A DNA stretch of 14,566 bases. Source: an uncultured Clostridia bacterium. GTDB taxonomy: Bacteria > Bacillota > Clostridia > Oscillospirales > Ruminococcaceae. The notes below the pieces were generated by a model. It was given only the letters and a program-made list of their open reading frames with translations, searched no databases and was not told the origin of the DNA. A program made the translations under genes and the position numbers. The stretch's first letter is position 1. Each line of letters starts with the position of its first letter. Positions 1 to 13,235 of the stretch are shown one piece after another. The stretch lies in assembly GCA_946183095.1 (NCBI GenBank), contig CAMHBE010000016.1:1-14566 (forward strand), written 5' to 3'.

Positions 1-203
1 AAAACGGGGTCATCGGTCTTACCTTCGGCGATTAGACGGTCACGCTCCCCGAGAAACTCCTCATTGACAGTCGGGAACGTCAGCTCCCCCGTGCGTATCT
101 CATCGAACGGTTCGTTCAGCTTTGACAGCAGCTTTTCCGCCAGCTTCGCTGTCCGTGACTCTTTGCGGACACAAGAGTTGATATAAAGTATCGGTCTTTC
201 CAT
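1..203 (-). CDS. NAD(P)H-dependent oxidoreductase, flavodoxin fold (5' part only)
   Basis: The first 67 codons of a gene that runs out of the window at position 1. The start is an ATG at 203 preceded by GAGGTG seven bases upstream. The N-terminus reads MERPILYINSCVRKESRT, then a helix rich in Leu and Lys. This matches the beta1-loop-alpha1 of the Flavodoxin_2 / NADPH-dependent FMN reductase families, whose members often begin ILYINACVR-ESRT; the loop after beta1 binds the FMN phosphate. Such proteins are soluble cytoplasmic flavoenzymes reducing quinones, azo compounds or flavins. A promoter lies directly upstream, so it is probably transcribed separately from the deacetylase-like gene. The active-site half is outside the window and the substrate cannot be guessed. 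Confidence 0.75.
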   Translation of the reverse strand, partial: MERPILYINSCVRKESRTAKLAEKLLSKLNEPFDEIRTGELTFPTVNEEFLGERDRLIAEGKTDDPV

Positions 204-238
204 AGATATGCACCTCACATGGTCGTTGTTATATTTAA

Positions 239-268
239 ATTGTAACATAAAACTCCCCCAAATGTCAA
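239..268 (-). promoter_or_regulatory. Sigma-A type promoter of the oxidoreductase gene
   Basis: On the minus strand a perfect -35 TTGACA (263-268) is followed by an 18-base spacer and a -10 TACAAT (239-244). Transcription would start near 232, giving a leader of about 30 bases before the GAGGTG ribosome site. The -35 box shares three bases with the foot of the upstream hairpin (266-306). Confidence 0.65.
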
Positions 269-306
269 TACCGCACAAAGAGACATACGCTCTTTATGCG
301 GTATTG
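266..306 (-). terminator. Strong hairpin after the deacetylase-like gene, probable terminator
   Basis: Arms 266-282 and 290-306 pair in 16 of 17 positions around a 7-base loop (one C/A mismatch). It lies 45 bases past the stop codon of the minus-strand gene at 352-1557 and just before the next promoter. The position fits a terminator, but there is no proper run of U after the stem on either strand (minus-strand continuation ACATTTGGGGG), so intrinsic termination is not certain. It could instead be an RNA 3'-end protecting hairpin. Confidence 0.55.
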
Positions 307-351
307 CATTAAGAATGGTGATGCAGTTTCCGGCAGCACCGCTATTTCCGG

Positions 352-1557
352 TCACTTGACTGCGTGCGGCACGCTCTCGGTTTCTGCCGCCCCTTTGCCG
401 TCGGAGCTGTCGTCCTCGGGTATTATCTCCGGGTCGTCCTCCGGTATCACGGACACGTCATCGGGTGTGGGCGCGGGTTCGTCGGGAGCGGAAAACACCT
501 GCGGTTCATTGCCCGGCTCCGGGTCGGTGTAAGTCCCGCCCGCGCCGTAGTTCTCTGCCGCATATACGAGCACCGTGTAGCAGTCCATAAGCTCCTCGTA
601 GGTCGCCTCACGCACTGCATACAGCTCATCGGCGTTCAGGAAAGACTTGATATCGTCAACCAGTCCGACCCTGCCGACGGAAGAAAGGTCGTAGATCTGC
701 TGAACCGTGAGGTTTGCGCGCATCTTCTCGAACGCGGAGTCAAGAGCGGCGTTGTAGTCGCAGTAAACTATCGGGAGCGCCGTAGTCACCGCAGGTCGGT
801 AATGCTGAACGCCCTTCTCGTCGATGTAGTAATTGCTGCCGAATGCAAGATCCTCGATCTTCACAAGCTCCAGACCCTTCTTTTTCAGCCCGGTTATTAT
901 GTCGGGCAGGGCTTCGAGCGTAACCTCGCAGTCGTTGTGGAAAAGCACCACCGAACCGGACGCAGTACCGTCGAGCACCCTCTTTTTCACCGAGACAGCG
1001 TCGGGATCATCAAGGTCTTTGCTGTCAACGCTCCACTGCACGACGGTGTAGCCCATGCCCTCCAGCGTGGTGAGTGAGCTGTCGTCGCAGTCGCCGTAGG
1101 GCGGACGGTAGAACGCGGGGTCGCGGTTGGAAATGACCTTTATCTTCTTTGCGTTCTCGTTCGTGTCGGCTATCAGATCGTTGATGTTCGTTCCGGCGAT
1201 ATGTATGTTCTTGTCGGATGCGCACTGCACCGAATGACCCGCCGCCGATATCTTGCGTACGGCATCGGGGTGGGTGTCGCAGAACTCTCCCGTAACGAAG
1301 AATGTCGCCGGGGTGTTGGTATTGCGGAGTATTTCGAGCAGACCGTCGATATTGCCCGCATCCCACGCGCAGTCAAAGGTGAGAGCGGCGCGTTCGTCAG
1401 TGCGCTCAACACTGCATACCGGTCTTTTTGATGTATCCGCCGATGCAGTGACCGAGCCTGCAACTGCGAAGATAACGGCTGCCGCTGCCGCGATAACGGC
1501 GAGAACGATGCCCGCTATGCGGAATATCTGTTTTCTTGTCATAGTGCATACTACCAT
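352..1557 (-). CDS. Membrane-anchored polysaccharide deacetylase-like protein (NodB homology) with degenerate metal site
   Basis: A 401-residue protein. Residues 11-34 form one hydrophobic segment (signal anchor or uncleaved signal), so the rest is outside the cell. Residues 57-240 are a NodB/CE4 domain of the PdaA/PdaB/YlxY type: motif 1 TFDCAW (60-65), ATFFVTG (84-90), motif 3 RPPYG (151-155), motif 4 WSVD (175-178) and motif 5 LFHN (205-208). CE4 enzymes remove N-acetyl groups from peptidoglycan or chitin-like sugars using a metal held by Asp-His-His. Here the metal Asp is Cys63, and the His-x3-His site reads ASDKN (113-117), so both His are Ala or Asn. The general base Asp62 and His207 remain. 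Residues 241-360 match no family I recognise, and the last 60 residues are a Pro/Asp/Glu-rich tail. The ATG at 1557 is preferred because AAAGGA lies nine bases upstream; the ATG five codons later has no ribosome site. No convincing sigma-A promoter is visible, so sporulation-sigma control is possible. Fold is confident, activity doubtful. Confidence 0.8.
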   Translation of the reverse strand: MVVCTMTRKQIFRIAGIVLAVIAAAAAVIFAVAGSVTASADTSKRPVCSVERTDERAALTFDCAWDAGNIDGLLEILRNTNTPATFFVTGEFCDTHPDAVRKISAAGHSVQCASDKNIHIAGTNINDLIADTNENAKKIKVISNRDPAFYRPPYGDCDDSSLTTLEGMGYTVVQWSVDSKDLDDPDAVSVKKRVLDGTASGSVVLFHNDCEVTLEALPDIITGLKKKGLELVKIEDLAFGSNYYIDEKGVQHYRPAVTTALPIVYCDYNAALDSAFEKMRANLTVQQIYDLSSVGRVGLVDDIKSFLNADELYAVREATYEELMDCYTVLVYAAENYGAGGTYTDPEPGNEPQVFSAPDEPAPTPDDVSVIPEDDPEIIPEDDSSDGKGAAETESVPHAVK

Positions 1558-2030: not shown

Positions 2031-3011
2031 TTACACAGCGTTTGCGGCGAACTCGGCGCGTATCTTGTCCACAAGTCCGTTCTTTGCAAGCCTTGCGGCG
2101 GAACAGATAATGTTGTACATCGTTCCGGAGTTTGCAGCACCGTGTCCCTTTATCACGGGGATATTCGTTCCGAGCAGCACAGCCCCGCCCTGTGTGTTGA
2201 AGTCGTACTTTCTGTACACCGCGTCAAGCTGTTCGCCTACCGCGTCCTGCACGCCGGGGAGTTTCCGCAGTTCGGCAAGCGCTGCCTTTGCGCTGCCCTC
2301 TATGGTTTTCAGCAGGACGTTGCCGGAAAAACCGTCGCACACGATCACATCGGCTTCTCCGGTAAGCACAGATGTTCCCTCGACATTTCCGACAAATTCG
2401 GGTATATTCGCGCGTATAAGCTCATTTGCCTGTTTTACTACGGCATTGCCCTTTTTGTCCTCCGCGCCGTTGGACAGCAATCCAACTTTCGGCGCTGCAA
2501 CGCCCACCGCCTTCATATACGCGATGCCCATGTGTGCGAAATCGACGAGTTTTTCCGCGCGGCAGTCAACGTTTGCGCCGCAGTCAACGATGCACAGCGG
2601 AGTTCCGCCGATACGCGGGAGTTCCACCAGCAGCATCGGACTTATGCGTGCGATACGTCCGAGCATCATCATCGCCGTAACAAAGATAGCGCCCGTTGCA
2701 CCGCACGACACCAGCGCGCCTATGTCCGGGTCATCCTTGTAAAGCTGCGCTGCCCGCACCAGTGACGAGTTCTTCTTGTTTTTGAACGCTTCGGCGGGGT
2801 CATCGTGATTGGTTATGACCTCGGGCGCGTTGATGATCTCTATGCGCTCCGTGCGATATCCGCGCTCGTTTATGTACCGGGTAAGCTCCTGCTCATTACC
2901 GCACAGGTACAGATACAGCTCCTCGTTCTCCCGTACTGCCATGAGCGCGCCGTCAACGAGCTCTGTCTGCGGTCTGTCGGCACCTTGCAGGTCAACCGCT
3001 ATTTTTATCAT
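2031..3011 (-). CDS. plsX: PlsX-like phosphate acyltransferase (divergent)
   Basis: A 326-residue protein, near the usual PlsX length of 330-345. PlsX moves an acyl chain from acyl-ACP to inorganic phosphate, giving acyl phosphate for PlsY at the membrane. Family landmarks in order: IAVDLQGAD (4-12, usually DAMGGD), NAPEVI (61-66), KKNSSLV (79-85), VSCGATGA (101-108, usually VSAGNTGA), DCGANVDC (143-150), GNVEG (208-212) and CDGFSGNVLLK (225-235). The changes in the first and fourth motifs suggest a paralogue with a different acyl donor rather than the housekeeping copy. ATG at 3011 is chosen over GTG at 3020 because AGGAAGG ends two bases before the GTG and 11 before the ATG. The start overlaps the preceding gene by 20 bases, so translation is probably coupled. 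It is the last gene of the operon. Family is confident; substrate unknown. Confidence 0.88.
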   Translation of the reverse strand: MIKIAVDLQGADRPQTELVDGALMAVRENEELYLYLCGNEQELTRYINERGYRTERIEIINAPEVITNHDDPAEAFKNKKNSSLVRAAQLYKDDPDIGALVSCGATGAIFVTAMMMLGRIARISPMLLVELPRIGGTPLCIVDCGANVDCRAEKLVDFAHMGIAYMKAVGVAAPKVGLLSNGAEDKKGNAVVKQANELIRANIPEFVGNVEGTSVLTGEADVIVCDGFSGNVLLKTIEGSAKAALAELRKLPGVQDAVGEQLDAVYRKYDFNTQGGAVLLGTNIPVIKGHGAANSGTMYNIICSAARLAKNGLVDKIRAEFAANAV

Positions 3012-3753
3012 GGGTACCACTGCCTTCCTGTTCTTTCCAGAAATTTTCCGTAAGCATCCGGTATGTCTGCGGCTGGAACGGCGGCTTTGAGAGCTCCGCG
3101 GTCATTTCGTCGCTGAGCGTGCCGTCTTTTGCAAACACCGCGCCTGCGTTCCTTATCTTTGACAGATACATCGGCAGCTTGCGCTCCTTTCCCGTATCTA
3201 TAAGCGCTTTGAGTTCGGGGCAGCATATCATAGTATAGCCCTTTTTGCCGAGTATCAGATCGATCTGACCTTTGAGCGGTGCGAACACCTCGGCGGATTC
3301 CGAGAAACCGCATGAAGATATCACCGCGAACCGCTGACCTTCTTTCTGTACGCGCAGTCTGTGGTACTGCTCATCGTCGTCCGACCGCATCTCGCCCCTG
3401 TACGTTGAGAGCATTCCGAGGAGACGGTCGGTCACGACCTTCATCGTTCCCGGCAAGCCGAAAAAAAAGAGGGGGAAGCTCTCAACTATGAAGTCGGCTT
3501 CTTCCAGCTTACTTTTCAGCATCGGGATATCATCACCTTTGATAACACATTCTCCCGCCGTTCGTCCCCAGCATGAGAGACATCCTCGGCAGGGAATGAC
3601 GTTCATATCCGATATGTTCACATATTCGGCAGTGCTCCCTGTTTCCTGCTCCAGACCCTCCACGAATGCTCTTGTCACAGTCATGGTGAAGCTCTTTTCA
3701 CGCTTGGGACTGCCATTTATCACAAGTATCTTCTTTGCCTGTTTATCGGGCAT
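2992..3753 (-). CDS. NADPH-dependent FMN reductase / iron-sulfur-flavoprotein-like oxidoreductase
   Basis: A 253-residue soluble protein of the flavodoxin-like FMN reductase superfamily. The FMN phosphate loop is VINGSPKREKSFT (11-23). Cysteines at 55, 58, 61 and 69 form Cx2Cx2Cx7C, matching the compact cysteine motif (Cx2Cx2Cx4-7C) of iron-sulfur flavoproteins that hold a [4Fe-4S] cluster next to FMN. SFPLFFFGLPGTMK (92-105) is the usual second flavin-contacting region. The tail is about 60 residues longer than the smallest family members. ATG at 3753 has GGGAGA six bases upstream; the GTG one codon earlier is less likely. It sits between fabZ and plsX, with 178 bases holding a large palindromic repeat before it and no visible promoter of its own. 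It may carry out a redox step on the ACP-bound chain or product, but nothing in the sequence shows a substrate. Confidence 0.8.
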   Translation of the reverse strand: MPDKQAKKILVINGSPKREKSFTMTVTRAFVEGLEQETGSTAEYVNISDMNVIPCRGCLSCWGRTAGECVIKGDDIPMLKSKLEEADFIVESFPLFFFGLPGTMKVVTDRLLGMLSTYRGEMRSDDDEQYHRLRVQKEGQRFAVISSCGFSESAEVFAPLKGQIDLILGKKGYTMICCPELKALIDTGKERKLPMYLSKIRNAGAVFAKDGTLSDEMTAELSKPPFQPQTYRMLTENFWKEQEGSGTHDKNSG

Positions 3754-3774
3754 CACTATCTCCCTTATGTTTCC

Positions 3775-3921
3775 GGTGCAGCGTCAGGCTGCCGCAGGTC
3801 AAGGGCGCGCAGCCCTTGTGCCGTCTGCCAATGCAGAAAGCATTGGTAGGGCAATCCAAAGCGTGCACGACGCACGTTTTGGATTGCCGGAAAAGACAAA
3901 GCGCGAACGCGCCGCTGCACC
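3775..3921. repeat. Cloverleaf-like palindromic repeat inside the operon
   Basis: A perfect 9-bp outer inverted repeat, GGTGCAGCG (3775-3783) and CGCTGCACC (3913-3921), encloses three consecutive hairpins. The first is 3800-3818 (7 bp, 5-base loop), the second 3826-3848 (9 bp with one G-T, loop AGAAA), and the third 3850-3888 (17 bp with one G-T, 5-base loop). The block fills nearly all the space between the fabZ stop (3932) and the next start (3753). No ORF, promoter or U-tract is seen. It looks like a REP/MITE-type intergenic palindrome, and may also protect RNA ends or lower expression of the two downstream genes. Confidence 0.7.
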
Positions 3922-3931
3922 TGCCTTCTTA

Positions 3932-4375
3932 TTATCGCTTGTATATGCTGTCTCTTGATACTGCTGTGAATACGAGACTTCCCTTTGCGTGGACATTGCC
4001 ATCCACCCTGACTTCGGCATCGAACGCGAACAGCGCACCGCCTCCGCGTGTCTTTTTAACGCTGATATCCAGCACATCTCCGGGGATAACAGGCTTCACG
4101 AATTTGAACCCGTCCACTTTCAGCAGCACATAGAGCTTGTCGGCATCAGGCTCCTGCTCAACAACGAACGAGCAGAGCTGCGCACAGGCTTCGATCAGCA
4201 GTACGCCGGGCATTATCGGAGCACCGGGGAAATGCCCGATGAAATGCGGTTCGTTCACCGACACACACTTTATGCCCTCCGCACTCTCGCCCGGAACGAC
4301 CTCTATAACACGGTCGATCATCTGAAACGGCGGGCGCTGCTTTATCTTTTCGTTTATATCATCAATATACATCAT
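3932..4375 (-). CDS. fabZ: 3-hydroxyacyl-ACP dehydratase, FabZ type
   Basis: A 147-residue single hotdog domain, the normal FabZ length. FabZ removes water from 3-hydroxyacyl-ACP to give trans-2-enoyl-ACP in the cytoplasm. The signature HFPGAPIMPGVLLIEACAQ spans 48-66, with His48 and Glu62 as the catalytic pair; both are intact. PPFQMIDRV (15-23) is the usual N-terminal strand. The start ATG at 4375 overlaps the fabG stop as ATGA, which implies translational coupling; no good ribosome site of its own is visible. It follows fabG in an operon that lacks a recognisable enoyl reductase, so its enoyl product may be kept unsaturated. The housekeeping fatty-acid role cannot be excluded from sequence alone. 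Confidence 0.92.
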   Translation of the reverse strand: MMYIDDINEKIKQRPPFQMIDRVIEVVPGESAEGIKCVSVNEPHFIGHFPGAPIMPGVLLIEACAQLCSFVVEQEPDADKLYVLLKVDGFKFVKPVIPGDVLDISVKKTRGGGALFAFDAEVRVDGNVHAKGSLVFTAVSRDSIYKR

Positions 4376-5103
4376 AGCGAGATACCGCCGTCCATTGTTA
4401 TTACCTGTCCCGTTATGTAGGACAGCTCATCTTTGGTGAGCATCGACACCACCGCCGCGACTTCCTCAGCCTTGCCGAAGCGTCCGAGCGGTATCTCTTT
4501 CAGATACTCTTCTTTTTTCTCGTCCGACAGCGCGTTTATCATCTCTGTTTCGATAAATCCCGGAGCTACCGCGTTCACACGGATGCCTTTTGCGCCGAGT
4601 TCTTTTGCAAGCACCCTCGTAAGGGAGTTCACAGCGCCTTTTGCGGCACTGTACACGCTCTGTCCAGCAAGTGCGAGTTCGCCGCTCACCGAGGACATAT
4701 TGATTATCACGCCCTGCTTGCGTCTGAACATTTTCAGACCCACCTGCTGCGCACAATAGAAATATCCCTTCACGTTCAGGTCGAAGCACTTGTCGAGATC
4801 GTCGTTGTTCATCATCAGCAGATAGCTGTCGCGCACGATCCCCGCGTTGTTCACCAGCACGTCTATCTGCCCGTACTTCTTGTCAACGTCCCGCACCATC
4901 TGCTTTACCTGCGCGGGGTCGGAAACATCCGCCTTGTATATCATGCCGTCGCCGCCGTCTGACCGTATCTGCTCCAGCACCTTGTTGGCTTCTTCCTCGC
5001 TGCGGCTGTAGTTTATAACTACCGTGAAGCCGTCCTTTGCGAGACGCACAGCACAGGCTCTGCCGATACCGCGCGATGCTCCGGTTATTAACGCAACTTT
5101 CAT
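4372..5103 (-). CDS. fabG: 3-oxoacyl-ACP reductase, FabG type
   Basis: A 243-residue short-chain dehydrogenase, normal for FabG, which reduces 3-ketoacyl-ACP with NADPH. TGASRGIG (7-14) is the cofactor-binding glycine motif and NNAG (85-88) the structural motif. The catalytic residues Asn110, Ser138, Tyr151 and Lys155 fall at the same numbers as in E. coli FabG. The C-terminus GQVITMDGGISL is typical of FabG. The start has AAGGAG five bases upstream, 19 bases after the ketosynthase stop codon. Residues for catalysis are complete, so an active ketoreductase serving the ACP of this operon is expected. Other SDR functions are possible, but the fabZ/ACP/ketosynthase context supports FabG. Confidence 0.93.
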   Translation of the reverse strand: MKVALITGASRGIGRACAVRLAKDGFTVVINYSRSEEEANKVLEQIRSDGGDGMIYKADVSDPAQVKQMVRDVDKKYGQIDVLVNNAGIVRDSYLLMMNNDDLDKCFDLNVKGYFYCAQQVGLKMFRRKQGVIINMSSVSGELALAGQSVYSAAKGAVNSLTRVLAKELGAKGIRVNAVAPGFIETEMINALSDEKKEEYLKEIPLGRFGKAEEVAAVVSMLTKDELSYITGQVITMDGGISL

Positions 5104-5122
5104 CGCTTCTCCTTATCTGCCG

Positions 5123-7516
5123 TTATCTTCCAATCACAAGCGCGCAGTACGAACCGCCCGCGCCGAACGAAAGCGCGAGTATATTGTCAAGCTCGCCGCT
5201 CTTAACTGTCTTTCTTGCCATTTTACCGTCGCCGCCGAGGAAATACGCGCTGTCCTCCGGGATATCCCCGTGCAGCATCAGCGCAGCGTGTGCGGCTCCG
5301 AGTGCAGCCGATGCAGCCCTTCCCTCGCCGAGACGCTCCTTCACCGAAAGTACGGGAAGTTCCGCGAGTCTGCCGCCGAATACGCGTTTCAGCGCACCCA
5401 GCTCTATGTCATCAACCGCCTTGCAGCCGTCCGCAAATCCCACGACCGCACCGATGTCGGCAGCCGTGATGCCCGCATCCGCAACAGCTTCCGCTATCGC
5501 ACGGTCAAGCGCTTCGTCCGAGCCGCTCAGCTTTCCGAACTCTACATTGCGGTGCGCGGAGCCGCAGCCCTTTGCGTAAGCGTATATGCGCGCGCCCCTG
5601 TCCTTTGCAGCCGTTTCATCTTCGAGCAGCAGTGTAGTGCTTCCGTCGGAGAGTATGAAGCTGTCTGAACCCGAATACGGCTCCACAGGCTTGTCCGCGG
5701 CGTAACCGAGAGTTCCGTACAGCTCGCGGATTATATCGTCGTTCTCGTCCGTGCCCGTCGCGAGCATAGCTTTCTCGCGTCCGAGACGTATCACGCTCAT
5801 TGCATACGCTGCCGAGAAAAGTCCCGACTGCGCACCGTTCGTCGCGGTAACGTTGTACCCCTTTATGCCGGAGCATATCGAGAGATAGCCGCCCGCCGCA
5901 TTATATACGGTATTCGGGAACTTGAACGCACTTCCGTTCGCGTTGCCCTTTTCCGCTATCAGCATCTCAAAGTCGCAGACCGGGGAGAGCGCACCCTCGG
6001 AAGTTCCCACGATTATGCCTATATCGGTCGCGTTGTCGTCCGTTATCGTAAATCCGCCGTCCTGGAGCGCTTCCATTCCGGAAACTGCCTGGAGCTGGCT
6101 GAAACGGTCGAGCTTGCGGTAAAATGCCATTTTCAGACCGAGCGCGTCGTAATCGTCCTTGCCCACCGACGAACAGAGGTCGGCAGCAGCTGCGGGAGTT
6201 CCCGGAACGAAGTCCTCAACGTAATTCTGCACGCCGTTTCCCGCCGGGGTCACGATACCCATGCCGGTGATGCCGATCCGCGGTCTTTCGTCTCTCATCT
6301 TAACACTGCCGATCTTCTTGCCGAACACGATGGACGCGTTGTTGCCGCCGAAGGCGAAGGAGTTGCTCATGACCGTGTGGAGTTCCTTTTTGCGGGGAAC
6401 GTTCGGACAGAAATCGAGCTTTCCGGCTCTTTCCGCGAGCAAGGTGAGATCATCCTCCGAAAATCCCACAGTCGGGGGAACGATGTTTTCACACAGCGCT
6501 TTTATCGCAAGAACGGCTTCCACCGCTCCCGCCGCGCCGAGACAATGCCCCGTCATGGCTTTTGTGGAGCTTACGCTGAGGTCGTCGTTCTTTCCGTCGA
6601 ATATGGTATGCAGGGACAGGAATTCCGCTTCATCGTTCTTTGCGGTACCCGTTCCGTGCGCGTTTACATAGTCTATATCGGCTTCGGTGATGCCGGAATT
6701 CTTGATAGCATCGCGGATAGCGTTCATCTGTCCTTCGCCGTCGGGCCGCGGAGCCGTGATGTGGTGTGCGTCGCTGCTCACGCCGGAACCCAGCACCTCG
6801 CAGTATATCTTCGCGCCGCGTGCCTTTGCGTGCTCGTAAGACTCGACTATGACCGCACCCGCGCCCTCGCCGAGCGTGATACCGCTGAGGTGATTGAACG
6901 GCGAGCAAGGGTTCGCGTCGAGCGCGTGCAGCGAGGTGAAACCGGCATAAGGCACGGAAGCGAAGGAATCCGCACCGCCCGCGATAACAACATCCGCGCG
7001 TCCCGTCCTTATCAGGTCGGAGGCGTAGGAGATGCTGATAGTACCCGCGGCGCAGGCGTTGGCGACGTTGGTGACGACACCTCCCGCGTGGCAGTAACCC
7101 GCAGCCTGCGACGCTATCGCGGCTATCGGCATCTGGGGTATCAGTTCCGCTTTCTTTCCTTTTGTATAGTATTCCTCAACGCTTACGACACCGCCTACAC
7201 AGCTGCCCATTATCACTCCGGCGCGTTCGCTGCCGCCGAAGTCCGTAAGCCCGGAATCGTTCATGGCTTCAGCGACTGCCTTTATGCAAAGCTTTGAAGC
7301 TCTGTCCATACCCTGTGTTCCGGGAAGGCTCCACGGCGTGTCGTCACGCACTTCTGCGGAGTAGTCCGAATAGCAGTTCTCGGTATCGACGGTTTTCGTG
7401 TGATCTATGCCGGACACCGCATTTATCGCGTTGTTCCAGCATTCCTCAACATTTCCGCCTATAGCGGAGATCATGCCGAGACCTGTTATCACACAGCGAG
7501 TTCTGTCGTTTTCCAC
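5123..7516 (-). CDS. Fused ketosynthase and chain-length-factor-like protein (KS-KS0)
   Basis: A 797-residue protein made of two FabF-like thiolase-fold domains, each about 400 residues. The first (about 5-402) is complete: Cys155 in NACAAG, His287 in NAHGTGT, Lys319 and His324 in TKAMTGH, and GEGAG (216-220), so it should catalyse decarboxylative condensation of malonyl-ACP with acyl-ACP. The second (about 411-797) keeps the fold (GITGMGIVTPAGNG, LSFGAGGS) but not the chemistry: the Cys position is Ala562 (NGAQSG), the first His position falls in GFADGC (693-698), and the second reads LGEG (729-732). This is the pattern of a chain-length factor, which in type II polyketide systems is normally a separate subunit paired with the ketosynthase. 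GTG at 7516 has AAGGGTGAG upstream at good spacing. The gene follows the ACP gene by 131 bases and precedes fabG by 19. The domain assignment is strong; the fusion's product is unknown. Confidence 0.9.
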   Translation of the reverse strand: MENDRTRCVITGLGMISAIGGNVEECWNNAINAVSGIDHTKTVDTENCYSDYSAEVRDDTPWSLPGTQGMDRASKLCIKAVAEAMNDSGLTDFGGSERAGVIMGSCVGGVVSVEEYYTKGKKAELIPQMPIAAIASQAAGYCHAGGVVTNVANACAAGTISISYASDLIRTGRADVVIAGGADSFASVPYAGFTSLHALDANPCSPFNHLSGITLGEGAGAVIVESYEHAKARGAKIYCEVLGSGVSSDAHHITAPRPDGEGQMNAIRDAIKNSGITEADIDYVNAHGTGTAKNDEAEFLSLHTIFDGKNDDLSVSSTKAMTGHCLGAAGAVEAVLAIKALCENIVPPTVGFSEDDLTLLAERAGKLDFCPNVPRKKELHTVMSNSFAFGGNNASIVFGKKIGSVKMRDERPRIGITGMGIVTPAGNGVQNYVEDFVPGTPAAAADLCSSVGKDDYDALGLKMAFYRKLDRFSQLQAVSGMEALQDGGFTITDDNATDIGIIVGTSEGALSPVCDFEMLIAEKGNANGSAFKFPNTVYNAAGGYLSICSGIKGYNVTATNGAQSGLFSAAYAMSVIRLGREKAMLATGTDENDDIIRELYGTLGYAADKPVEPYSGSDSFILSDGSTTLLLEDETAAKDRGARIYAYAKGCGSAHRNVEFGKLSGSDEALDRAIAEAVADAGITAADIGAVVGFADGCKAVDDIELGALKRVFGGRLAELPVLSVKERLGEGRAASAALGAAHAALMLHGDIPEDSAYFLGGDGKMARKTVKSGELDNILALSFGAGGSYCALVIGR

Positions 7517-7647
7517 TTTATCTCACCCTTCTTTATCTTTGTGCAATGTCTTTGTTTACTTTATTTATCAACAACACTAAAAACCATTGCCGTTATCTTT
7601 CACAGCAAAGGTTTTCGGTGGATATCATTTTTGTGTTTTGCGGTGCA

Positions 7648-7893
7648 TCACTTGTTTGCTGTGATGTACGCGGCTATGGTGTCGATGCTTAAGAAGTTTT
7701 CCTTGTCAACGCCGGTCATGTCAACTCCGAACTCGCCGTCAACATAGGAGATTATCTCCAGAGAATCAACAGAATCAAGACCTATCGAGCTGTCGCCGAA
7801 AAGTTCGGTGTCGTATTCCAGAACATCGGCTTCAACTCCGAGAGTTGAGCATATAAAATCCTTGAGTTTAGCCTTCATCTCATTATCAGCCAT
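7648..7893 (-). CDS. Acyl carrier protein
   Basis: An 81-residue acidic protein, typical ACP size. GLDSVDSLEI (38-47) contains Ser41, the 4'-phosphopantetheine attachment site, with the usual DS(L/V) surroundings. The chain would be carried on this arm and presented to the ketosynthase, FabG, FabZ and PlsX encoded downstream. ATG at 7893 is chosen because AGGAGG lies eight bases upstream; an ATG two codons earlier sits almost on top of that site. A consensus promoter about 40 bases upstream makes this the first gene of the operon. The phosphopantetheinyl transferase needed to activate it is not in the window. A dedicated ACP for this assembly line is more likely than the housekeeping AcpP, but not proven. 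Confidence 0.92.
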   Translation of the reverse strand: MADNEMKAKLKDFICSTLGVEADVLEYDTELFGDSSIGLDSVDSLEIISYVDGEFGVDMTGVDKENFLSIDTIAAYITANK

Positions 7894-7935: not shown

Positions 7936-7964
7936 ATTATACAACAGTTTTTCAAAAAATGCAA
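7936..7964 (-). promoter_or_regulatory. Promoter of the ACP-KS-fabG-fabZ-oxidoreductase-plsX operon
   Basis: On the minus strand, -35 TTGCAT (7959-7964), a 17-base spacer and a perfect -10 TATAAT (7936-7941). Transcription would start near 7929, about 35 bases before the ACP start codon. The sequence upstream is T/A-rich, which favours strong sigma-A activity. No FapR- or FabT-like operator is recognised. Confidence 0.8.
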
Positions 7965-8882: not shown

Positions 8883-8907
8883 TATCTTGCTTGCCCTGTT
8901 ATTACAG

Positions 8908-9067
8908 GGCACCTCTAAAAACCTCTTGCCGCCCATTCGTACCGCCCTAAAGCCGTCATATTGCACAAATTTTCCTTGACATACGACAGTATGCCTGCAA
9001 AAAATTTGTACAATCTGCCGACTTTATGTCGGCACGCCTGAACGACAATAGGTTTTTAGAGGAGCCC
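8908..9067. mobile_element. 160-bp miniature inverted-repeat element (MITE-like)
   Basis: Left end GGCACCTCTAAAAACCT (8908-8924) and right end AGGTTTTTAGAGGAGCC (9050-9066) are inverted repeats with one mismatch. The direct repeat TACAG flanks the element at 8903-8907 and 9068-9072, as expected of a target duplication. The whole unit is a long imperfect palindrome: 8907-8973 pairs with 9001-9067 at about 53 of 67 positions, closed by a hairpin CATAC-GACA-GTATG (8980-8993). A second local hairpin, GCCGAC/GTCGGC, lies at 9017-9033. It has no ORF, so movement would depend on a transposase elsewhere. Family unknown to me. Confidence 0.75.
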
Positions 9068-9534
9068 TACAGTATCGTTTCCATGCCCGTTTTCTGGGGC
9101 AGCAGTCCCATTTTCTCGTAGAACCTGCGCGCGTCCGGGTTGCACTCCCAGACGTTGAGCGTGATGTTGTAGCAGCCGACAGACTTCGCGTATGCTCTGA
9201 CGTGTTCGTACAGCGCACTGCCGACGTGCTTCCCGCGGCTCTTTTCGTCAACGCACAGATCGTCGATATACAGCGTCTTTATGTCGGTGAGTATGTTGTC
9301 GCCCTTGTGCTCCTGAAGGACGCAGAACGCGTAGCCCAGCAGTTCCCCGTCCTGCAATGCGGCAAATATCGGTCTGCTGTCATCGGCTATTATCTCCGCG
9401 AGCTGCTCGTCGGTGTATTTCTTGACACCGCCCTTGAACAAGTCCGGGCGGCCTTTGTGATGCACTTCGAGCACCTGCCGCAGCAGAGAGTTTATCCCGT
9501 CCATATCCTTTATTACCGCTCTTCTTATCTCCAT
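9067..9534 (-). CDS. GNAT-family N-acetyltransferase
   Basis: A 155-residue single-domain GNAT, which transfers acetyl from acetyl-CoA to an amine. The acetyl-CoA site is visible as LYIDDLCVDEKSRGKHVGSA (88-107): the strand-4/helix-3 signature in which the first Gly of RxxGxG is His103. NPDARRFYEKMGL (132-144) is the C-terminal part that packs on the cofactor. ATG at 9534 is chosen because AGGAAG lies eight bases upstream; 20 extra upstream codons would place the start on the -35 box. The stop codon TAG straddles the junction with the inserted element: its last base comes from the element, and the reconstructed empty site would read TAA. The protein therefore appears complete. Substrate unknown; close relatives are annotated only as GNAT. 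Confidence 0.88.
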   Translation of the reverse strand: MEIRRAVIKDMDGINSLLRQVLEVHHKGRPDLFKGGVKKYTDEQLAEIIADDSRPIFAALQDGELLGYAFCVLQEHKGDNILTDIKTLYIDDLCVDEKSRGKHVGSALYEHVRAYAKSVGCYNITLNVWECNPDARRFYEKMGLLPQKTGMETIL

Positions 9535-9711: not shown

Positions 9712-12099
9712 GTGATACACACGAAACATACATTTTTATCGGCGGCGGCAGTTACGCTGTGCGCCGCTCTGCTTGCGGGCTGCGGGACTGCGCCGGGGTC
9801 TGATGCCGGGGAGACTTCCCGCACGTCTGCGGCTGAAACGTCCGCTTCGGAAACATCCGCGGCGGTGACTTCCGCATCTTCCGAAGAACAGACCTCCTCC
9901 GCTGCGCCCTCCGCGTCCGTGGGAGCTTTCGCCGACGAGGAGGAGATAACCCCCGAAAAAGAAGAAAAGCCGTTCGTTATCGCAGTTGACGGCATTAACA
10001 GCACATACACCCCGTTTACAGGCAGTTCGGAATATGACCGGCTGCTCGACAGGCTCACCGGCGCAAGGCTGCTCGGACGCACAAGGGCGGGCAGACCCGT
10101 GACCGCCGGCGTTTCCGGTCAGAAAGAGCGTTTCGGCGGCAAGACCTACGATTACAGCGGGCTTGCCGATGTGTTTACCTACCGCAGTGAGACCGATGAT
10201 ACCACGACTTTCACCTTTGTGCTGCGGGAGAACGCGGGGTTCGCCGACGGTGAGACGCTTGACGCGGACGACGTGATCTTCACGCTCTATGTGCTGCTCG
10301 ACCCGTCTTACGAGGGTGACAAGTCCCTCGCGGATGCCGGCATCGTGGGTGCGCTGAACTACCGCTATGACAGCGCGTTCGCCGACACGATAACCGACGA
10401 GCGCATTGCGGAAGTCCTCGCGTCCCCCGAGATAGAGGATATGATGCGGGAAAAGCTGGTCATACCGACATTGCAGAAGCAGTACGCCGTGGTCGAGACG
10501 CTTTACGGCGACAGTTCCTACGAGATATACACGAGCAGATACCCCGACCCGCGCGATCTTTTCGTGTTCTTCTTCTCGATAGACAGCGAATACACCCGCC
10601 CCGAGAACGCTTCTAAAGACGATGTCATTTCCGATATCGCCGCAATGTACGGCAGCGGCTACAAACAGCTCGCAAGCATGACAGTGGGCGACGAGAACGC
10701 ATTTGACAGGCAGGCGGCGGCGATTGCGACCGAATACATCACCGTGCAGTCATACAACGCGGAAGTTCCCCGCGAACATATCAACAGCATTTCCGGCATA
10801 CGCAGGACGAGCAGATACAGCCTTGCGGTGACAGTTCGCGGCACCGGAACCGATTTTCTCGACACGGTCGCTGATATCGTCGTTGCGCCGCTGCACTACT
10901 ACGGTTCGGAAGCGCTTTATGAGATCGAAAAAGAACGTTTTGGCTTCACCAAGGGCAATGCTGCCGCCGTTCTTGCCGCACACGCGGGGGATCCTCTCGG
11001 CGCCGGCGCATACAGTGCAGCATCGTCCGATGACGGTACGCCGGTATTTGCCGCAAACAAGTATTATTATCGCGGCAAGCCATATACCGAAGAAATTACC
11101 GTCACAGGTGCATACGATGACCCGGCTGATATGATAGCCGACGGCAGAGCGGATGCGGCGTTTTCCGACGGCTCGGCTGATGTTCGCAGTTCCGCCGACA
11201 ATGCCAACAGATCCGTCGAGAAAGTATTCACCGAGGTCGTCGGCAGCAGCGGCTACGGATACATCGGCATAAACGCCGATACCGTGAACATCTCCGGAGA
11301 TGCGCTCTCCGAAGCGAGCTGCTTTCTGCGCAAGGGCATTGCCACAGCACTGAACTATTTTAAAGGCGGATCCGTTTCCGCCTACTTCGGCGAGGAATAC
11401 GAACTCACCGACTACGCGATCGCCGGAACGATGCAGGTCGCAGCCGACACCGAAGCCTATATCCCGCCGTACTCCCTCGATGCGGACGGCGAGCCGATCC
11501 TGACCCCCGACATGACTGCCGCACAGCAGAAAAACGCGGTGAAGACCGCCTGTCTCGGCTATTTCATGCGTGCGGGCTATACCGTTGACGAAAACGGCGT
11601 TATCACCGCAGCACCGGAGGGCGGGAGACTCTCGTTCAATGCGCTCGTATCAGGCGGCGGAGCCGGTGCGCATCCCGCATATACGGCTCTCGCAAAAACC
11701 TCGGAACTGCTCGGCGAGATAGGAATAACGCTGAACGTAACTGATGTCACCGACCCCGGCACGCTCTGGGAAAGTATTTCCCACGGTACCCATGAGATAT
11801 GGGCGGGTGCGTGGGACTGCACGCTGTCACACCTCTATCCTGCCGACCACTACGGCATAGACTTCGGCAAACTCGACTATGAGCTCCCGGAAACGGAAAG
11901 CGCTGCCGACGCGGAATATGCGCTGTTCTGTGCGGTATGCCGCAAAGCTGTGGATGAACTTGCCGTCGAAGTCCCCCTCTATAAGCGGACAAGCCTTGTG
12001 CTGTTCAGCGCCCTTCGCGTGAATAAGTCCGGTGTTGCCGAAAACATGACCGGTTCTTACGACTGGACAGACCAAATAGAAAAGCTGGAGCTGAAATGA
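9712..12099 (+). CDS. Lipoprotein, solute-binding protein family 5 (oligopeptide type)
   Basis: A 795-residue secreted lipoprotein. Residues 1-23 are a signal peptide ending in the lipobox LAGC, so Cys24 would be lipidated and the protein held on the outer face of the membrane. A Ser/Thr/Ala-rich linker (about 25-75) follows. The rest matches SBP_bac_5, the peptide/nickel-type binding proteins of ABC importers: [26 protein letters not shown] (split at 167-182 and 183-192) is the family's hallmark region, and the C-terminal third includes the usual EIWAGAWD. Typical members have 500-600 residues; the extra length appears to lie in the middle, around 200-345. GTG start with AAGGAG upstream. No permease or ATPase gene is near, so the transporter partner is elsewhere or the protein acts as a sensor or chaperone. 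Its stop overlaps the ispDF start (ATGA), an unexpected coupling. Ligand unknown. Confidence 0.82.
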
Positions 12100-13235
12100 T
12101 GAAAACCAACGTTCTGATACTCGCGGGCGGGTCGTCAAGCCGCATGAACGGTATAAACAAGCAGTTCGCACTTATCGGCGGCATCCCCGTCATAATAAAA
12201 AGCATCCTCGCCTTCGAGCACTGCCCCCTCGTGTCGGATATAATCGCTGCCGTGCGGGAATGTGACGCGGACAGGCTTGCCGCGCTGTGCGGAGAATACG
12301 GCATTACAAAGCTGAAAAAGACAGTTCCCGGCGGTGATACCCGTACAGAGTCCGCACGGCGCGCGTTTGCGGAATGTGACGATTGTGATATTATAATAGT
12401 ACACGACGGTGCAAGGCCCTACGTTTCCGCCGCACTCATCGAGCGCGTGATAAATGCCGCAGCCGCTCACGGTGCCGCGATACCCGCACTTCCGCTGAAG
12501 GACACTGTCAAATTCACCGACGAAAAGGGTTTTTCCGCGGGAACTCCCGACCGCGCCGCACTTCGCGCAGTTCAGACACCGCAGGCTTTCCTCTGTTCGC
12601 AGTACCGCGAAATGATGCTGTCGGGGAAGGATGCCACCGACGACGCGGGACTTGCGGAAATGCTGGGTATGCCGGTATTTCTCACGGAGGGTGATCCCCG
12701 CAACATAAAAATAACCACACCCGACGACCTTCCAAAGGAGAAAAACTCAATGTTTCGTATCGGACACGGCTATGACGTTCACCTGCTCACAGAGGGGCGA
12801 AAGCTCATCATCGGCGGCGTTGACATACCATTCGACCTCGGGCTGCTCGGACATTCCGACGCTGATGTTCTCGTCCATGCGGTTATGGACGCAATGCTCG
12901 GTGCGCTGGCGCTGGGCGACATCGGCAGGCACTTCCCCGACAATGACCCGCAGTACAAAGGCGCGGACAGCATCGGACTGCTGCGGCGCGTCACAGAAAT
13001 GATACATGAGCGCGGGTATTCGGTTTCAAACCTCGACTGCACGATAAATGCAGAGAAGCCGAAACTCGCTCCCTACACAGCGCAGATGCGCTCGAATATC
13101 GCGGCAGCCTGCGGATGCAGCGAATCGCAGGTCAGCGTGAAAGCCACCACCGAGGAAGGGCTGGGACTTGCGGGCAAAGGGATAGGTTCGGTTTGCGTGT
13201 GCTTGCTGAGTTCCTGTCAAAGCGGTATGTTCTGA
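12096..13235 (+). CDS. ispDF: Bifunctional IspD-IspF (isoprenoid MEP pathway)
   Basis: A 379-residue fusion. Residues 1-218 are IspD (MEP cytidylyltransferase): [16 protein letters not shown] (9-24) with Arg16 and Lys22, then [29 protein letters not shown] and [10 protein letters not shown]. Residues 219-379 are IspF (MEcPP synthase): GHGYDVH (223-229) with Asp227 and His229, [15 protein letters not shown] with metal ligand His261, and [10 protein letters not shown]. The two enzymes catalyse non-consecutive steps of the MEP route to isopentenyl diphosphate in the cytoplasm; IspE, needed between them, is not in the window. The ATG at 12096 overlaps the lipoprotein stop. IspD is a little shorter than usual (225-236) and joins IspF with almost no linker. 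An internal ribosome site before the IspF Met suggests that IspF may also be made alone. Confidence 0.95.
12735..12752 (+). promoter_or_regulatory. Internal ribosome site and start codon for IspF alone
   Basis: AAGGAG (12735-12740) is followed nine bases later by an in-frame ATG (12750) that is the natural first Met of the IspF domain ([11 protein letters not shown]). It looks like the former start of a separate ispF gene kept after fusion, and may still give a free IspF protein. Seen in sequence; use is inferred. Confidence 0.55.

Follow-up and report, generated by a model that had tools for sequence, protein, structure and literature searches.

A dedicated acyl assembly operon in a Clostridia genome

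We analysed a stretch of 14,566 nucleotides (hereafter, the window) from an uncultured Clostridia bacterium of the Ruminococcaceae (contig CAMHBE010000016.1 of assembly GCA_946183095.1), which corresponds to C16:1-14566 of a source genome of 2.27 Mb, 389 contigs and 72% completeness. Pfam and NCBIfam profile searches identified six genes on the minus strand between positions 2031 and 7893, the same set that an initial annotation, made from the sequence alone, had described as a compact type II acyl or polyketide assembly operon without an enoyl reductase (ER). In the direction of transcription, these genes encode an acyl carrier protein (ACP) of 81 amino acids (7648-7893; PF00550, 33.6 bits, above cut-off); a fusion of two ketosynthases (KS) of 797 amino acids with a GTG start (5123-7516), composed of an active half, KS1 (6308-7516; PF00109/PF02801), and a dead half, KS2 (5123-6307), which resembles a chain-length factor (CLF) and has lost the Cys and His positions; a ketoreductase (KR), FabG (4372-5103; PF13561/PF00106); a dehydratase (DH), FabZ (3932-4375; NF000582, above cut-off); a flavodoxin-fold oxidoreductase with a Cys4 motif, CX2CX2CX7C (2992-3756; PF02525/PF03358), with a GTG start and an ATG at 3753; and a divergent second copy of PlsX (2031-3020; TIGR00182, above cut-off), also with a GTG start and an ATG at 3011.

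As annotated initially, the catalytic residues are intact in the ACP (active-site Ser), KS1 (Cys, His and His), FabG (Ser-Tyr-Lys) and FabZ (His and Glu motifs). The attachment Ser of the ACP is invariant in all 15 alignment rows, and the window ACP reached none of the cut-offs of the fatty-acid ACP models that it matched in NCBIfam. Highly reducing (polyene) type II polyketide synthases (PKS) are recognized by a dedicated ACP, KR and DH without ER, and by an active KS paired with an inactive KS or CLF; the operon displays the former combination and the fusion the latter.

The fusion combines an active and a dead ketosynthase

Residues C154, H286 and H323 of KS1 (numbering of alignment A1) are invariant in 17 of 17 rows, and in KS2 the Cys and both His are gone from 14 of 14 rows, the Cys position being occupied by A, M, F, N, S or T. 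We predict that KS2 serves as a chain-length factor. AlphaFold modelled the whole fusion with a predicted TM-score (pTM) of 0.91. Both halves are close to the PDB pair 9s5h_B/C, on which the literature search gave no paper.

Two distant KS-KS fusions, L085 and L086, were included in the KS tree as comparison rows, and ApeC was excluded because it is half-size (240 aa); the tree holds several long branches, including that of ApeO. The KS2 halves form a clade of 19 rows (support 100/100) that gathers this family with Priestia, two Streptomyces fusions, L085 and L086; the dead half is common to the fusions. The KS1 halves cluster with ApeO of aryl polyene synthesis (20 rows, 95/94), separate from eight FabF proteins (100/95).

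Relatives and gene content of the cluster

Counting in the window genome, a full-length fusion was found in 3/36 genomes of the genus, 7/395 genomes drawn from the order and 3/398 from the phylum. The two non-self matches from the phylum are the distant fusions L085 and L086, which have different gene sets, and three of the six other matches from the order were taken as G067, G077 and G078 (completeness of 98% for G067 and 97% for G077). A scan of named genomes yielded 20 loci in Ruminococcus, Ruminiclostridium, Clostridia, Lachnospiraceae and Anaeroplasma/Acholeplasmatales, and a plasmid collection contributed [Eubacterium] eligens (Lachnospira eligens) ATCC 27750 and a second L. eligens record, with 66% identity over the full length. 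For both halves of the fusion, the window, L003, L. eligens and the Anaeroplasma/Acholeplasmatales rows make up a supported six-row clade (KS1, 100/98; KS2, 100/99), a grouping that points to transfer between phyla.

We compared 25 loci by tblastn with reference proteins: the window, every named locus but L007 (19 of 20; the L007 contig ends within the fusion), G008, L082, L083, L084 and L094. The initial annotation had proposed searching for a conserved gene order, and a core of ACP, KS-KS fusion, KR, DH and flavoprotein does recur over these loci. The KR was present in all 25 and the DH in 24, the locus without a DH beside its KR being L019, which adjoins housekeeping fab genes. The flavoprotein was found in 23 of the 25 clusters, all but L017 and L021, whose hosts both have FabK, and its four Cys are invariant (18/18); it is a regular component of the system. 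Among 60 genomes searched, full-length matches of at least 43% identity to the flavoprotein occurred only in the three fusion-bearing genomes, and matches of 34–35% identity in G033 and G015. In G008, flavoprotein and DH lie together where a contig ends, consistent with a split cluster. The nearest solved structures, all weak matches, are Cd1, azoreductases and quinone reductases. A compact Cys4 motif within a flavodoxin fold is presumably a trait of iron-sulfur flavoproteins (Isf-like), and the window protein has both the motif and the fold.

FabH, FabD, FabI/K and acc genes had been noted as missing, which is true of the window operon, but FabD and acetyl-CoA carboxylase (ACC) genes are not foreign to the system, as FabD plus AccDA (or AccABCD) occur in the clusters of nine relatives (L009, L010, L011, L013, L015, L016, L020, L022 and L094); L014 contains AccB and AccC as far as its contig end. 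A phosphopantetheinyl transferase (PPTase) domain adjoins the core in both loci tested for it, L006 and L082. The cluster from L. eligens ATCC 27750 holds FabD, AccDA, the flavoprotein and PlsX, and an alpha/beta hydrolase gene is found upstream of the ACP in L. eligens.

An acyltransferase gene is also a frequent neighbour. In 24 loci (the count omits L014, which is truncated on either side, and includes contigs with little sequence on one flank) we found PlsX in eight, PlsC in 12, neither in four (L006, L009, L015 and L019) and both in none, and PlsX or PlsC is a candidate off-loading partner of the system. Among 21 genomes searched, two PlsX copies were found in G000, G011, G061, G062, G065 and G075, whose clusters are of the PlsX type; G072, G073 and G079 likewise have two copies, G060 has the cluster PlsX alone and G076 has none. 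The second copy in the window genome lies on contig C1 and is 35% identical to the cluster PlsX, and G072, the host of L015, carries an unlinked PlsX that is 45% identical to that of the window.

In two distant hosts, proteins that are related to each other lie close to the cluster (L006 12802-13695 and L016 5052-5924); that of L006 belongs to the DegV family, which we take to bind fatty acids in a FakB-like manner. Separately, the distant fusion in L086 (G220 C205, 1497-10539) is accompanied by a nonribosomal peptide synthetase-like gene, two leader-like peptides of 93 amino acids and a metallo-hydrolase, perhaps for a polyene-peptide hybrid, and a genome of the same order (G043 C1, 289807-299111) contains three more KS matches in long frames, of up to 3936 amino acids, which likely belong to a modular PKS.

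Host genomes with and without a separate fatty acid synthase

Other fab and plsX genes, whose absence would have made this operon the housekeeping set, are present in the window genome: besides PlsX on C1, the 6.4 kb contig C122 (L091) encodes FabG (127-867, minus strand), FabK (945-1883, minus), FabH (2161-3159, minus) and FabD (3290-4225, plus), and it ends at the point where FabF follows in G011. Among the 23 host genomes searched, of which 22 are distinct because G011 and G069 are identical, FabK scored above cut-off in 15 and FabH in 11. With respect to the fusion, in the 14 distinct genomes with FabK this gene lies on another contig in 11, at 23 kb in G073 and adjoining it in G076. G079 contains FabH and another KS, and no FabK, and five genomes (G060, G061, G062, G073 and G075) have FabK and a FabF but no FabH match, which might be due to contig gaps or to another priming route.

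Seven genomes (G063, G066, G067, G068, G071, G072 and G077) showed no FabK above cut-off, no FabH match and no KS besides the fusion, and 6/7 of their clusters carry FabD and/or ACC genes; from this, the system appears to be independent of FabH and of a FabK-type reductase, and to need malonyl supply, KS, KR and DH. In all, FabD and/or ACC genes were found in the clusters of 7/8 genomes without FabK, compared with 2/11 with FabK (Fisher p 0.0055), in a test of 19 genomes, the hosts of the 20 named loci minus G064, that are not independent by descent. The view of a dedicated, non-housekeeping operon without ER is supported by these results, and strengthened by the seven genomes that lack FabK, FabH and any other KS.

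Comparison with known polyene systems

The gene set was compared with published systems, on the basis of the portions of the cited articles that were available. A first precedent is found in the gut symbiont Lactobacillus reuteri R2lc, whose plasmid-borne clusters pks and fun are type II polyketide-like polyene clusters; pks encodes PksB (688 aa), ACP, KR, DH, PPTase, FabD and ACC, without ER, fun encodes FunB (798 aa), and a pigment absorbing at 405–409 nm is retained in a fun mutant and lost from a pks mutant (PMC6498181). They resemble our system in the long single-gene KS, ACP, KR, DH, FabD and ACC, in the absence of ER and in the plasmid location, a likeness drawn from the gene descriptions. 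However, unlike in the window operon, the available table rows for pks and fun show no PlsX/PlsC or Cys4 flavoprotein, and they include a metallo-hydrolase (pks) and an aminotransferase-like gene (fun).

In Gram-positive bacteria, the cyl operons for granadaene comprise CylI (KS), CylG (KR), ACP, CylZ (DH) and CylD, a malonyl-CoA-ACP transacylase (MCAT), and produce a polyene by skipping enoyl reduction (PMC6985545). The KS, KR, ACP, DH, MCAT and Gram-positive host are shared with our system, as is, by prediction, the skipped enoyl reduction. The cyl operons also carry CylF, CylA and sugar genes, along with the acyltransferase CylE, which every such operon of that article has. Neither the window operon nor the annotated stretch of L. 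eligens shows a recognizable counterpart of these genes; as to CylE, all six window genes were identified otherwise and none is so annotated in L094, although no CylE profile was run.

The aryl polyene (APE) pathway is similar in its KS with an inactive partner (ApeO-ApeC), KR (ApeQ), DH (ApeP/I), ACP and acyltransferase (ApeD), as well as in the grouping of KS1 with ApeO in the tree. ApeO-ApeC alone yields the full-length polyene in vitro (PMC8358021), and the lysophospholipid acyltransferase ApeD has been proposed to transfer the aryl polyene to lipid (PMC8253772). Nevertheless, APE systems differ, as far as those articles describe them, in their Gram-negative hosts, aryl starter ligase, second KS (ApeR), export machinery and half-size ApeC, and no genes for aryl starter activation or export were found among the genes identified in the window or annotated around L094. 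Since starter, CylE and export genes were not seen, we do not assign the operon to the APE or cyl systems. The ishigamide-type and Streptomyces highly reducing type II PKSs (L096/L100) carry extra KS and ketosynthase III genes and oxidases, and their stretches have no annotated PlsX/PlsC, with one L100 gene called an acyltransferase.

The initial annotation did not recognize the gene set as a described pathway. This has to be amended for the fused KS with ACP and KR but no ER, which has precedents in L. reuteri; it holds for the full set, of which no description turned up in the portions of open-licence PubMed Central (PMC) literature covered, including PMC10132072, PMC11747023, PMC8241843 and PMC9582728, where nothing matched it. 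The yellow affinity substance and celluxanthenes made by cellulolytic clostridia came into question since the closest relatives are Ruminococcus, but they were discarded because their proposed synthase is an iterative type I PKS (PMC12144888, PMC11839114; consulted in part). By comparison of gene content, the system is predicted to work like a polyene synthase whose novelty is the association of a fused KS-CLF, a Cys4 flavoprotein and PlsX/PlsC as candidate off-loading enzyme, in Clostridia and Mycoplasmatota.

Possible function of the operon

We favour, with a probability of roughly 0.58, that the operon encodes a dedicated type II acyl synthase that forms a polyene and is coupled to the acylation of membrane lipids. 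The malonyl-ACP would be supplied in trans by the host fatty acid synthase (FAS) in the window genome, and by cluster-borne FabD and ACC in other hosts. The fusion would condense the units as a covalent KS-CLF pseudo-heterodimer, after which FabG would reduce the keto group and FabZ would remove water; because there is no ER, a C=C bond would remain after each round, and a conjugated polyene of defined length would grow on the ACP of the operon. From there, PlsX in the window, or a PlsC-type acyltransferase in sister clusters, may pass the chain toward glycerophospholipid, and the Cys4 flavodoxin-fold protein might perform an auxiliary redox step. The product looks like an unsaturated and probably coloured fatty chain that a membrane-lipid enzyme receives. 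The guess of the initial annotation, a conjugated polyene or polyunsaturated acyl chain, was reasonable, and neither the Gram-positive polyene precedents nor the acyltransferase pattern of the relatives were within its view.

Several observations weigh against this interpretation. Forcing KS1 into a clade with FabF costs 17.5 log-likelihood units, yet the approximately unbiased (AU) test does not reject it (p 0.138), and an assignment of KS1 to the polyene enzymes from the tree alone was not upheld. A plain sequence search places FabF first for KS1 (284 bits, versus 188 for the ishigamide KS), KS1 is above the cut-off of one FabF subfamily model, and its sequence and fold scores either tie between FabF and polyene KS or favour FabF, in a fold comparison that barely covered the KS2 half. 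The usual substrates of PlsX are saturated chains, and in four of 24 loci both PlsX and PlsC are missing from the vicinity. L006 is the sole exception to the association of FabD/ACC genes with FabK-less hosts, since it contains none although its host has no FabK. Among the 31 short-chain dehydrogenase/reductase matches in the seven genomes without FabK and FabH, 22 were inspected and none is FabI-like; FabV and FabL were not searched. Also, where a host has FabK, this enzyme could act in trans to reduce the chain, and the flavoprotein is present in 7/7 clusters of hosts without FabK and FabH, which is compatible with a reductase role.

This last distribution keeps chain reduction as the main rival. 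It could occur within the system, if this were a self-contained FAS of a new make-up in which the flavoprotein acts as enoyl reductase and priming is independent of FabH, giving PlsX/PlsC a chain that is saturated, fully or in part, and constituting the only FAS in Mollicute-like hosts. The location of the clusters without flavoprotein (L017 and L021) in FabK hosts, the restriction of its closest full-length matches (at least 43% identity, 60 relatives) to the three fusion genomes and the resemblance of KS1 to FabF agree with this possibility. However, the flavoprotein is kept also where a separate FAS looks complete, its nearest solved relatives, which are weak matches, include no enoyl-ACP reductase, and the dead KS2 points to KS-CLF enzymes, so we deem it improbable. 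Slightly more plausible, although still unlikely, is a special fatty acid pathway that borrows FabK or another host reductase in some rounds and, instead of a full polyene, supplies PlsX/PlsC with chains of special length that are unsaturated, contain hydroxy groups or are reduced in part; alternatively, the ACP-bound product might leave as a small non-lipid polyketide. FabK is available in most of the host genomes searched (15/23, including that of the window), the acyltransferases could accept any acyl-ACP, and the alpha/beta hydrolase of L. eligens would fit a pathway of this kind; conversely, the cluster functions, or is at any rate maintained, in seven FabK-less genomes, and where present FabK is mostly on a different contig (11/14). 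That the operon is the housekeeping FAS of the organism is very improbable, even though it holds the only KS matches of a genome that is 72% complete: FabG, FabK, FabH and FabD lie together on C122, up to the point where G011 has FabF, G011 and G008 have FabF as well as the fusion, only 3/36 genomes of the genus contain the fusion, and the window operon has no FabH or enoyl reductase. We rejected this candidate on account of the second fab locus and the second PlsX.

A broader extension of the polyene synthase interpretation, which we put forward tentatively, is that it represents a widespread, undescribed route of gut anaerobes for placing conjugated polyene acyl chains into glycerophospholipids via PlsX/PlsC, and that these are the sole self-made acyl chains in Mollicute-like hosts without a recognisable FAS. 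If true, strictly anaerobic gut bacteria would gain a lipid class, the principle of granadaene and aryl polyenes would extend to Clostridia and Mycoplasmatota, and the retention of an ACC-KS-KR-DH operon in hosts without FabH and FabK would be explained. The idea is testable in the culturable commensal L. eligens ATCC 27750, because it carries the cluster.

Operon boundaries and other features of the window

One promoter and one terminator had been proposed to bracket the six genes. The terminator-like hairpin (1977-2014) is real, with a 15-pair stem; the scan reports it on the plus strand, but the stem is symmetrical, and the nine terminator-like matches of the region do not exceed those of shuffled sequences (mean 7.8). 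The promoter (7936-7964, minus strand), read from the sequence as TTGCAT-17-TATAAT, is plausible, with a perfect -10 and a weaker -35 that matches 3/6 positions, and does not appear among the 14 matches of the promoter scan. A dispersed genomic repeat (3762-3925), outside the pathway, separates the FabZ and flavoprotein genes; it is single copy within the window and has 63 match pieces in its own genome, including itself, with 81–100% identity and many partial units. Given this repeat, a single transcript for the operon is only an inference.

Elsewhere in the window, positions 9712-12099 encode a family 5 solute-binding protein of 795 amino acids, with no adjoining ABC permease or ATPase recognised, and 12096-13235 is a single frame of 379 amino acids that, from its motifs, resembles a fused IspD-IspF. 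An inverted repeat with arms of 68 nucleotides, 79% complementary (8906-8973 and 9001-9068), is found downstream of a flavodoxin gene.

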